Positions 31,395 to 59,751 of a stretch of DNA of 64,000 nucleotides are shown here, piece after piece; position 1 is the stretch's first letter, and each line of letters opens with the position of its first letter. The notes under the pieces are model-generated. The model was not told the DNA's origin. It made no database searches and saw only the letters and a list, made by a program, of their open reading frames with translations. The translations under genes and the position numbers were made by a program. Source of the DNA: Marivivens aquimaris (GTDB lineage: Bacteria; Pseudomonadota; Alphaproteobacteria; Rhodobacterales; Rhodobacteraceae); the NCBI RefSeq assembly GCF_015220045.1, contig NZ_JADBGB010000001.1:2597001-2661000 (forward strand), given 5' to 3'.

Positions 31395-31449
31395 GGTCAG
31401 CGGGACACTCCTCCCCAACGAGGAGCGTATATCTGAGAGGGTAACACCG
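31395..31449 (+). promoter_or_regulatory. serC-motif-like leader RNA element
   Basis: The serC leader contains a hairpin CTCCTC (31408-31413)/GAGGAG (31420-31425) with loop CCCAAC, preceded by GCGGGACA and followed by an A/T-rich stretch and the ribosome site. This fits my memory of the alphaproteobacterial serC RNA motif found just before serC. The GAGGAG arm could hide or mimic a ribosome site. A covariance-model search would decide the assignment. Confidence 0.55.
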
Positions 31450-57582: not shown

Positions 57583-58422
57583 ATGCGATTTTTGCCTTTG
57601 CTGCTGGCCCTTTGGGCCAGCGCTTCCCATGCCGACGCGCGCCTGTCGTCCGAGATCACCCTACCCATGGGGATCAAGGGCGGCCTGTCCGCAATCGAGG
57701 TTCAGAACAGCGGCAACTCCGCCGTCGTCCTGTCCGACCGCGGGGTGATCCTGACGCTTGATCTGGTGCGTGAAAACGGCGTCCTGAAGGGCGTCCGCAA
57801 CACTGGGCAAGCCGATCTTCACAACCCGCAGGGACGTGTCTTGCAACGCCCTGCCTACGATTCCGAGGGGCTTTCCATCACTCCCGATGGCCGTCTGATC
57901 GTCAGTTTCGAATCCGCGCCACGCGTCTGGTCCTACACCGATCCCGCCGGTCCTGCCGCGCCCTATGCCCGTAATCCGGCCTTTGCGGACCTCCAGCCGA
58001 ACTCCGGCCTCGAGGCTTTGGCGACCGGCCCTGACGGTACGATCTACACCGTTCCCGAACGTTCCGGCCGTTATGACCGCCCCTTCCGCGTCTACCGCTA
58101 CCGCAATGATTGGGACGTAGCCTTTGAAATCCCGCGTCGCGGCAAGTTCCTCGTCACGGGTGCCGACATCGGCCCCGATGGCCTTTTTTATCTACTCGAA
58201 CGCGATTTCGTCGGCCTCGGTTTCAAAACCAGAGTCCGCCGTTTCGACATGAATGGTGGGGCGGAGGAGACGTTGATCGAGACCACCACCGGAACGCATT
58301 CGAACCTTGAAGGGATCTCTGTCTGGGAGGACGATCAGGGGCGGATCAGGCTCACGATGGTGTCGGACAACAACGAAAATCTGTTCATCGGGACCTATAT
58401 CACCGAATATATCCTCGATTGA
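57583..58422 (+). CDS. Phytase-like esterase-activity family protein
   Basis: 279-residue exported protein with signal peptide (LLLALWASASHA). It matches the 'esterase-like activity of phytase' family: GLSAIEVQNSGNSAVVLSDRG, YDSEGLSITPDGRLIVSFE, GLEALATGPDGTIYTVPE and SNLEGISVWEDDQGRIRL. The fold is a beta-propeller; substrate unknown. It starts 3 bases after mepA, completing a likely MFS-mepA-esterase operon. Confidence 0.85.
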   Translation: MRFLPLLLALWASASHADARLSSEITLPMGIKGGLSAIEVQNSGNSAVVLSDRGVILTLDLVRENGVLKGVRNTGQADLHNPQGRVLQRPAYDSEGLSITPDGRLIVSFESAPRVWSYTDPAGPAAPYARNPAFADLQPNSGLEALATGPDGTIYTVPERSGRYDRPFRVYRYRNDWDVAFEIPRRGKFLVTGADIGPDGLFYLLERDFVGLGFKTRVRRFDMNGGAEETLIETTTGTHSNLEGISVWEDDQGRIRLTMVSDNNENLFIGTYITEYILD

Positions 58423-58516: not shown

Positions 58517-58545
58517 TTGACATATACGACATCTGTGCCACCCTT
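58517..58545 (+). promoter_or_regulatory. Candidate promoter of the short leader unit
   Basis: A consensus -35 hexamer TTGACA lies at 58517-58522 in a locally AT-rich stretch after the esterase gene. At 17 bases spacing the -10 is only ACCCTT, so the -10 is poor or the promoter depends on an activator. Downstream sequence forms a short ORF, hairpins and a terminator. Confidence 0.4.
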
Positions 58546-58582
58546 GAGATACAGGCGAAACTCATTGAAAGGAGGTGATCCA

Positions 58583-58639
58583 GTGTCGAGAAAGGTATTG
58601 GAGAAAGTGGTCGGGACAACTTGGGGGGCGGTAGTCTAA
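58583..58639 (+). CDS. 18-residue peptide ORF with extreme Shine-Dalgarno
   Basis: GTG-started ORF encoding MSRKVLEKVVGTTWGAVV. The preceding 16 bases (58567-58582, GAAAGGAGGTGATCCA) are complementary to the entire 3' tail of alphaproteobacterial 16S rRNA, and the GGAGG core lies 7 bases before the GTG. The stop codon sits in the left arm of an 8-bp hairpin. The peptide is basic and amphipathic. A leader peptide or small-protein gene is possible; alternatively the RNA itself may be the functional product. Confidence 0.55.
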   Translation: MSRKVLEKVVGTTWGAVV

Positions 58640-58704
58640 GGCAGCCCTTAGACGGCTCAAACCTCAGGTGGGACAGCCTAACCGGCCCACCTCCTGGACT
58701 TTCG

Positions 58705-58735
58705 AAGGGTCGCCGATCGCCTCGGCGGCCCTTTT
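58705..58735 (+). terminator. Strong intrinsic terminator before arfB
   Basis: 12-bp stem AAGGGTCGCCGA/TCGGCGGCCCTT (one G-U pair, loop TCGCC) at 58705-58733 ending in TTTT. It should stop most transcripts of the short unit. Confidence 0.85.
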
Positions 58736-58759
58736 AATTCGCACCCGAACGGGCCGGTC

Positions 58760-58896
58760 CGCACCCTTTTGACGGGAATAAAGGGTGCGCAATCCGGCGC
58801 GGCAAAGGCGGAAAACCGGACCGATTTTGCCCGCAAACGCGCGAAAAGGGTGCGGGATGCCCACTTCGCACTAGTTTCAGGGCAGAAAAGGGTGCG
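58760..58896 (+). repeat. Cluster of AAAGGGTGCG repeats upstream of arfB
   Basis: The 10-mer AAAGGGTGCG occurs three times directly (58780-58789, 58845-58854, 58887-58896) and once inverted as CGCACCCTTT (58760-58769). The inverted copy and the first direct copy form a perfect 10-bp hairpin, and could pair with the other copies instead. The last copy ends 10 bases before the arfB start codon. The region is open as an N-terminal extension of arfB but that product is not family-like. Confidence 0.75.
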
Positions 58897-58906
58897 ATTG
58901 GAACTT

Positions 58907-59320
58907 ATGTTAAAAGTGAATGACCAGATCACCATTCAGGACTGGGAACTGACCGAGCAATTCGTCCGCTCGTCCGGCCCCGGCGGTCAGAATGTGAACA
59001 AAGTCTCAACGGCTGTCGAACTACGCTTCGAGGCCGAACGCAGCCCCTCGCTCCCCGATCCGGTCAAGCGCCGCCTGAAGCGCATCGCGGGCAGCAAGTG
59101 GACGCAGGACGGCGCGCTGATCCTGTTCGTGCAAGACACCCGCAGCCAGCCCCGCAACCGAGAGATCGCCCGCGAACGGCTCGCCGAAATGATCCTCAAA
59201 GCCACCCACGTCCCCAAACGCCGCATCGCCACCAAACCTACCAAGGGATCGGTACGCAGACGTCTGGACGAGAAGAAGAAGCGTGGGGAGGTTAAGGCGC
59301 TCAGGGGGAAGGTGGAGTAG
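58907..59320 (+). CDS. arfB: Peptidyl-tRNA hydrolase / alternative ribosome-rescue factor ArfB
   Basis: 137-residue protein that enters the empty mRNA channel of stalled ribosomes and hydrolyses peptidyl-tRNA. It has the catalytic GGQ in RSSGPGGQNVNKVST and the basic C-terminal tail (RRRLDEKKKRGEVKALRGK) that senses the empty channel. The ATG at 58907 matches the family start; a 46-residue upstream extension is rejected because it covers the repeat cluster. A rescue factor next to a leader with full anti-SD complementarity is suggestive but unproven. Confidence 0.93.
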   Translation: MLKVNDQITIQDWELTEQFVRSSGPGGQNVNKVSTAVELRFEAERSPSLPDPVKRRLKRIAGSKWTQDGALILFVQDTRSQPRNREIARERLAEMILKATHVPKRRIATKPTKGSVRRRLDEKKKRGEVKALRGKVE

Positions 59321-59416: not shown

Positions 59417-59590
59417 GTGAAATCAGGTGAGAAAGCCACCAAGAGTGGCCAATACGAAATAGTCGGCCCAAGAGGCGGCAAAACTGGTGAGGAGCGGACC
59501 GTAACTAAAGGTGAACCGTTTCCACCGACGCCAAAGGCAGGTCAAAAATATAACTTGGTTGATGCCACAAAGCACAAGGGCAAAAAATGA
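59417..59590 (+). CDS. YjzC-like small protein
   Basis: 57-residue basic protein too short for standard ORF lists. It fits the YjzC pattern: SGQYEIVGPRGGKTGEERTV, then TKGEPFPPTPKAGQKY and a Lys-rich end (KHKGKK). YjzC was first seen in Bacillus and has no known function. A GGAG lies 6-7 bases before the GTG start. The stop overlaps the next small gene by ATGA. Base composition is clearly more AT-rich than the surrounding core, suggesting acquisition by transfer. Confidence 0.68.
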   Translation: MKSGEKATKSGQYEIVGPRGGKTGEERTVTKGEPFPPTPKAGQKYNLVDATKHKGKK

Positions 59591-59751
59591 GCAGCGATAA
59601 GAGTCAGTCTGGAAACACTACCAATAAAGGTCCCCAGTCTTCGTCCATCTCGATACATAGTCTGCAGCCAATTGGCATCGGAGGAGCGCAAGGCTCAACA
59701 CAACCAACAGGCGCTGGCGGTACGCAAACTACTGGTAGTGGGAAGAAGTAA
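59587..59751 (+). CDS. Small Ser/Thr/Gly/Gln-rich protein
   Basis: 54-residue ORF that begins inside the stop of the YjzC-like gene. It is low in complexity (MSSDKSQSGNTTNKG; TQPTGAGGTQTTGSGKK), lacks hydrophobic segments, and looks disordered. I do not recognise it. The ATGA overlap and tight spacing make co-translation with the YjzC-like gene likely. It ends 3 bases before the convergent membrane-protein gene. Confidence 0.5.
   Translation: MSSDKSQSGNTTNKGPQSSSISIHSLQPIGIGGAQGSTQPTGAGGTQTTGSGKK

Follow-up and report, generated by a model that had tools for sequence, protein, structure and literature searches.

The mechanism nearest to the one considered here is, by analogy and judging from the parts of the paper covered, the upstream open reading frame (uORF) attenuator of duf1127 in Sinorhizobium meliloti, in which the ribosome-binding site of the uORF pairs internally and which has been put forward as a sensor of ribosome availability and translation efficiency (PMC12218461). 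Unlike the locus described below, this attenuator is thought to be Rho-dependent, lacks an intrinsic terminator and regulates a DUF1127 gene, and a Shine-Dalgarno (SD) sequence as long as the 16S rRNA tail is not described in the parts covered (PMC12218461). Within the Rhodobacteraceae, the UpsM leader of Rhodobacter sphaeroides carries an intrinsic terminator and gives rise to an sRNA in front of a conserved gene cluster, but in the abstract it is described as non-coding and as preceding the dcw cluster (PMC5089854). Unusually long pairing between SD and anti-SD, together with small leader ORFs, is found at the extended SD sites of the Gram-positive Staphylococcus aureus, where, in contrast, the extension is start-proximal and the abstract mentions no internal copy of the 16S tail (PMC13009471).

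The element can also be compared with the family CC2171 (RF01867), which is filed in Rfam as an sRNA gene. CC2171 is a Caulobacter sRNA that reportedly stems from the work of Landt et al. in 2008. In the part of the Rfam 15 paper covered, RF01867 appears as a list entry. A Mesorhizobium huakuii member, MH_s33, was predicted at 397 nt and gave a sequencing product of 215 nt; according to the parts covered, it was outside the nine candidates examined by Northern blot, which were drawn from the novel ones (PMC5596092). Among the titles and beginnings of abstracts of the open-licence literature, none described an ORF or a function for CC2171, or a leader of arfB.

Here, we analysed a locus of Marivivens aquimaris (Rhodobacteraceae) within a stretch of 64,000 nt (the window), for which an earlier note had drawn attention to a very short ORF behind an exceptionally long ribosome site next to the ribosome-rescue gene arfB and had proposed that the site could hold, titrate or sense ribosomes.

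Results

The ribosome site is located at positions 58567-58583 of the window (GAAAGGAGGTGATCCAG, + strand) and was compared with the 16S rRNA of a Rhodobacteraceae relative (genome G008, L374), the 3' end of which reads ...GCGGCTGGATCACCTCCTTTCTAAGG (CTGGATCACCTCCTTTCT); no 16S gene was detected in the window's own assembly, and the tail compared is that of the relative. The complement of this tail matched the site exactly over 17 nt, including the G of the GTG start codon, which is one base more than the 16 bases that had been claimed to complement the whole 16S 3' end. The 15-nt core of the site occurs once in the 4.05-Mb genome. The site leads into a mini-ORF of 18 codons (58583-58639, + strand, MSRKVLEKVVGTTWGAVV) consisting of GTG and 17 further codons, followed by the stop codon TAA (58637-58639), which is part of the 5' arm of a hairpin with a perfect 8-bp stem and the loop CAGC (58634-58653, + strand, GTCTAAGG-CAGC-CCTTAGAC). 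Both the 18-codon ORF starting from GTG and the position of its stop within a perfect hairpin were thus as the earlier note had read them. Upstream of the element, TTGACA (58517-58522, + strand) matches what we take to be a -35-like promoter motif; the stretch TTGACA...TGTGCCA (58517-58541) to which it belongs is near-palindromic in some relatives (TTGACAnACA...TGTGTCAA). In 69 of the 111 aligned loci described below, TTTG[AT] was present 43-55 nt upstream of the site, and a simple scan of the region for sigma-70 promoters returned no site at its criteria.

Searches in other genomes showed that the site is kept in many genera. Its 18-mer was found in 32 of 101 relatives, AAAGGAGGTGATCYAGTG in 105 of 246 Rhodobacteraceae genomes, and the pattern AAAGGAGGTGATCCNDTG in 63 of 385 Alphaproteobacteria. 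Named contigs that carry the motif, among the matches listed, belong to Rhodobacteraceae, with Cereibacter johrii, C. ovatus and several Ruegeria among them. In a second draw of 299 Pseudomonadota genomes, AAAGGAGGTGATCCNDTG was detected in 59 of 113 Alphaproteobacteria compared with 0 of 186 others (the split into 113 and 186 was counted from the result rows); among the matches listed, the reversed-pattern control was zero and the maximum was one site per genome. Since the 16S tail of the non-alphaproteobacterial classes has a different base near its end, the corresponding pattern TAAGGAGGTGATCCNDTG (TAAGG...) was searched as well, and it was found in one of the 299 Pseudomonadota genomes. 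The sole non-alphaproteobacterial match (L375, genome G694) carries TAAGGAGGTGATCCGGTG.

At the Rfam gathering threshold, no match was obtained at the element. Below this threshold, the RF01867 model aligned end to end (model positions 1-159 of 159) with 58559-58732 (+ strand), with a score of 37.4 bits, half of the gathering cut-off of 75, and with an E-value of 2.1e-6 in 501 nt and of 4.0e-6 in the whole genome of the window. Because the score is below the membership cut-off, the element was filed as a divergent relative of CC2171 and not as a curated member. When whole genomes were searched with the model, 66 of 289 Alphaproteobacteria, including the genome of the window, gave a match with E ≤ 0.001 and 10 scored above the cut-off, and among 14 control genomes only Caulobacter was matched. 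Much of the score in the window must derive from the 17-nt site, and common descent is therefore likely rather than proven. Like CC2171, the element is distributed in Alphaproteobacteria and has the same layout from end to end, with a site complementary to the 16S tail, an intrinsic terminator and, in the model, a putative pairing of the first codons with the bases directly ahead of that terminator; in contrast to CC2171, the peptide of the window is a different one, and in the Rhodobacteraceae branch the SD has CACCUCC as an internal partner and arfB follows. Taken as a whole, the sequence comparisons support the view that the element is likely a divergent branch, within the Rhodobacteraceae, of the CC2171 sRNA family of Alphaproteobacteria. 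In genome G416 (L046, L129), the CC2171 element is preceded on its own strand, at a distance of about 1.2 kb, by an alphaproteobacterial tmRNA gene (L129:7260-7628); a general link to tmRNA was rejected, as this arrangement was seen in one genome only and in none of the other sources checked. Elsewhere in the window, the Rfam serC leader (RF00517) is found at 31398-31449 (+ strand, 65.3 bits).

For the comparison within the family, 114 Rhodobacteraceae loci were collected by means of the 18-mer with one C/T position allowed, so that the invariance of the site among them is by construction. The alignment comprised 111 loci after exclusion of three whose ORFs had 20, 24 and 26 codons; L225, which has arfB downstream, was excluded from the 114 for want of the exact site (it reads GAAAGGAGGTGCCCATTG). 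The ORF was exactly 18 codons long in 111 of the 114 loci. Among the 111, the stop codon was TAG in 56, TGA in 29 and TAA in 26, and TGG was never found, compared with 14.6 TGG expected if the columns were independent; the length of the ORF and its stop are under selection by this measure, and translation of the 18-codon ORF is well supported by the alignment. The earlier note had asked for conservation of the peptide against synonymous change, and in the 111 loci third positions showed no surplus of changes across the ORF as a whole, the mean entropies at codon positions 1, 2 and 3 being 0.816, 0.821 and 0.827 bits. Two codons were fixed in all 111 loci (GAG at codon 7 and ACA at codon 12), and all 100 arginines at codon 3 were encoded by AGA; both AGA and ACA are locally rare, accounting for 2 of 78 arginine and 4 of 69 threonine codons, respectively, in four genes of the window. 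The last six codons (13-18) were highly variable, while the stop hairpin covaries. The even variability of the codon positions, the fixed locally rare codons and the variable last six residues alongside a covarying hairpin indicate that the places of start and stop and the shape of the RNA outweigh the peptide, and that constraint acts mostly at the RNA level is well supported. Weak signs of peptide constraint may be seen at codon 2, which encodes Ser in 101 of 111 loci with a free third base, and at Gly11, which is GGG or GGA in 107.

Outside the Rhodobacteraceae, ORF and terminator were counted at 31 loci out of 63 matching Alphaproteobacteria genomes. The ORF had 14-39 codons in 29 of them and 56 and 57 codons in L036 and L054, respectively, which look like ordinary small proteins. 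The peptides differ in these families, the second codon was TCT or TCG in 28 of the 31 loci, and in 25 of them a terminator-like hairpin lay no more than 160 nt beyond the stop, compared with 2 in shuffled sequence.

RNAalifold, applied to the 111 sequences, predicted a fold in which the SD core pairs with CACCUCC and the start codon is covered by a hairpin, together with inner helices, the stop hairpin and the terminator. A tree-based scan of single pairs revealed no significant covarying column pair, and tests at the level of helices were applied after it, with columns evolving independently along the tree as the null model (600 runs). The stop hairpin was never matched by the null in covariation (0/600) or in pairing (0/600), and when its arms were swapped between species, pairing as good as that of the species' own arms was reached in 0 of 5000 permutations. 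Inner helix D (58619-58624, + strand, partner 58664-58669) was likewise matched in 0/600 runs for covariation and 0/600 for pairing, and inner helix C (58610-58614, + strand, partner 58682-58686) in 40/600 and 5/600, respectively. The intrinsic terminator (58705-58739, + strand) has a 12-bp stem with one G-T pair (58705-58733) followed by TTAATT; a terminator-like hairpin was present in all 111 loci, with the null reaching its covariation in 2/600 and its pairing in 0/600 runs, and a simple terminator scan did not flag the one at 58705. The stop hairpin, an inner helix and the terminator thus covary in the alignment. The start hairpin, which encloses the GTG (58579-58602, + strand, UCCAGUGUC / GGUAUUGGA), was paired in 95% of cells in the 111 sequences but not beyond the null (covariation 189/600, pairing 77/600). 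The same percentage was paired in the long-range helix between the SD core GGAGGUG (58571-58577, + strand) and CACCUCC, a segment resembling the 16S tail just ahead of the terminator (58688-58694, + strand); here the null reached covariation in 303/600 and pairing in 65/600 runs, the SD being near-invariant through the selection of the loci. Both helices are conserved complementarity which the covariation test does not separate from plain conservation. The putative pairing of the first codons with the stretch before the terminator, as in the CC2171 layout, is represented by P1, in which GAAAG of codons 3-4 (58590-58594, + strand) faces CUUUC beside the terminator (58699-58703); the null reached its covariation in 2/600 and its pairing in 71/600 runs, with a register chosen after the top-scoring pair had been seen. 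As P1 and the SD-CACCUCC helix together would need a pseudoknot, they may represent alternative states. The site, the length of the ORF, the position of its stop and the folds are all kept among relatives; dismissal of the observation for want of conservation, which the earlier note had allowed for, therefore fails, and site, mini-ORF and stop hairpin are confirmed as conserved features at the sequence level.

In the predicted free state (mean of 111 loci), the probability of being unpaired was 0.02 for GGAGG, 0.11 for the start and 0.15 for the stop. The 17-bp duplex with the 16S tail was calculated at -32.2 kcal/mol, compared with a mean opening cost of 10.0, and the 7-nt core alone at -12.6 kcal/mol, compared with an opening cost of 6.6, which leaves a mean net of -6.0 that is favourable in 110 of 111 loci. 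By calculation the core thus also opens the fold, and the energetics do not require the full tail, which would be ample but not strictly needed, in line with the variants of the site found ahead of arfB (see below). The opening cost is ordinary, as four other starts in the window gave 7.3-12.6. Blocking of the start or stop region left predicted formation of the terminator unchanged (0.953, 0.954 and 0.952), and hence no path from occupancy of the RNA to arfB is visible in these calculations.

The arfB gene itself is located at 58907-59320 (+ strand; NCBIfam ArfB equivalog, 187.6 bits with a cut-off of 100; PF00472). The proximity that the earlier note had pointed out is borne out in Rhodobacteraceae, with arfB on the same strand and at most 800 nt downstream in 96 of the 114 loci. 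The gap between the terminator stem and the start of arfB was 10-839 nt in 95 loci, with 41 at 40 nt or less and 60 at 60 nt or less; a promoter of its own is hardly possible for arfB in the many species with such short gaps, and it should rely there on read-through. When the search was anchored on arfB instead (420 nt upstream, best 30 of 114 arfB-positive genomes among 120 searched), the element was present within these 420 nt in 26 of 30 loci. The match to the full tail held in 16 of the 26 elements, whereas in the other 10 the site was changed, mostly in the ATCC part (altered in 9); GGAGGTG was kept in all 10 and GAAAGGAGGTG was whole in 8, and the ORFs behind these changed sites had 18 codons in 7 cases and 20 in 3.

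The ORF and the main helices were also retained in 16 of the 111 aligned loci that have no arfB in the fetched stretch, with pairing of 0.98 compared with 0.95 in the rest for SD-CACCUCC, 0.81 compared with 0.84 for the stop hairpin and 0.69 compared with 0.81 for P1. In 8 of these 16 genomes arfB was located: L004 and L222 carry it on a different contig, L176 and L199 at a great distance, L030 about 7.5 kb away, and L008, L132 and L168 on the same strand, 1.7-3.4 kb downstream; the remaining 8 were outside the arfB search, and L184, with arfB 1.0 kb downstream, was grouped with the arfB-positive loci. The site could be placed in 32 of 39 larger stretches, and of these 32 only L128, a member of the Rhodobacteraceae, carries arfB; the 31 stretches from other families had neither arfB near the element nor a widely shared neighbour gene, as clusters of neighbours comprised at most 3-4 loci and had no fixed place. 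A role as general arfB leader across the RNA family was rejected on these grounds. The element is, on comparison of genomes, wider than its arfB link, and the link to ribosome rescue was seen in Rhodobacteraceae only.

In the window, the element is preceded by a phytase-like gene (57583-58422, PF13449). Gene order ahead of the element is conserved for this gene and for a membrane-protein gene resembling YhhQ/VUT, each being present in 25 of 28 loci; the membrane-protein gene, the end of which is a short way from the element in 25 of 28 relatives, is absent from this place in the window and in two close relatives, L019 and L021. Between terminator and arfB (58741-58900), several copies of AAAGGGTGCG and its complement are present, and the inverted pair CGCACCCTTTT...AAAGGGTGCG could form a further hairpin. 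Two short ORFs of about 57 and 54 codons, starting with GTG and ATG, respectively, were read by eye behind arfB (59418-59751). In genome G017 (C7:203-1660), three additional matches resembling the C-terminal part of arfB follow arfB, as if its tail were repeated.

Discussion

We consider it an even call that the element is a structured small mRNA or sRNA of about 170 nt, ended by a terminator and carrying a translated 18-codon ORF, which is opened by the ribosome, serves as a reporter of free 30S subunits and, in Rhodobacteraceae, lies on the read-through route to arfB. Within this explanation the kinship, the translation and the constraint at the RNA level are firm; neither the sensing nor the step to arfB is. 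The SD core of the free RNA is predicted to pair with CACCUCC, the internal copy of the 16S tail, with start and stop codons paired as well, while the bases just before the SD core (GAA or GAAA) are predicted to stay unpaired. The free 16S tail of a 30S subunit could enter at these bases and would then displace the internal CACCUCC copy and the start hairpin along its length, thereby opening the ORF, so that the state of the RNA would report initiation-competent 30S subunits. In Rhodobacteraceae, transcription that passes the terminator would run on into arfB, so that arfB could be tuned by how far the RNA is occupied or decays; read-through could still depend on Rho, pausing, RNA decay or another factor. 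That the element holds, titrates or senses ribosomes, as had been suggested, is possible. A bolder version is tentative and in our view rather improbable: the element may be a natural toehold-like switch with the free 16S 3' tail as its ligand, the start site being shut by the internal copy and opened by the 30S subunit through strand displacement over up to 17 bp, and may thus act as a sensor of ribosome availability across Alphaproteobacteria that has been wired to arfB in one family.

A serious competitor, although an unlikely one, is that the element is a stand-alone CC2171-like sRNA working in trans, either by targeting mRNAs or by tying up 30S subunits, and that arfB is adjacent merely through conserved gene order. 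The filing of CC2171 as an sRNA gene fits this, as do the lack of arfB or a widely shared neighbour in the 31 stretches of other families in which the site was located, the 16 aligned Rhodobacteraceae loci that keep ORF and main helices with no arfB in the fetched stretch, the terminator predicted to form in every state tested, and the upstream phytase-like and membrane-protein genes, whose order is conserved too. However, arfB begins 10-60 nt past the terminator stem in 60 of 95 loci, which suggests read-through and close coupling, and a purely non-coding RNA needs neither the selected stop codon nor the selected ORF length.

Quite unlikely is a classical transcription attenuator of arfB, in which a ribosome on the mini-ORF would choose between terminator and antiterminator. 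The leader ORF, the hairpin at its stop codon and a terminator directly before arfB are arranged as such a device would have them, and downstream of the stop, GGCAGCCCTT is similar to the terminator's 3' arm. A precedent is the S. meliloti uORF attenuator, which the covered parts of its description propose to monitor ribosome availability (PMC12218461). An intrinsic terminator before arfB was indeed found, but an alternative antiterminator pairing was not: the candidate pairs with the terminator of its own species (-13.31) no better than with terminators exchanged from other species (-13.60), and the predicted terminator is unaffected by blocking start or stop. On the exchange test and the unchanged terminator probability, an antiterminator at the stop codon was rejected.

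We regard it as very unlikely that the 18-residue peptide is the product that matters. A core VSRxxLExGVGT is common to most of the 111 loci and codon 2 and Gly11 are conserved as described, but the codon statistics (no third-position excess, fixed locally rare codons, variable last six residues) make the peptide a weak candidate for the main product, and other families have different peptides. An origin of the site by chance or from a displaced antisense piece of 16S DNA, for which the exactness of the 17-nt match might speak, is practically out of the question and is refuted by conservation, as the match stops where the ORF starts and the site is kept in many genera with zero reversed-pattern controls among the matches listed.

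To return to the structured, translated small RNA that we favour, the element represents a branch, itself without annotation, of a small-RNA family of Alphaproteobacteria that has received little study. What is catalogued as an sRNA gene appears to be a translated mini-mRNA, centred on an exceptionally long ribosome site and distributed across Alphaproteobacteria, and the CC2171 RNA gains a concrete hypothesis for its function. Sensing of free ribosomes by the element may be an attractive possibility, for which, by analogy, there is precedent, and the element makes it testable how cells sense free ribosomes and how ArfB is regulated.
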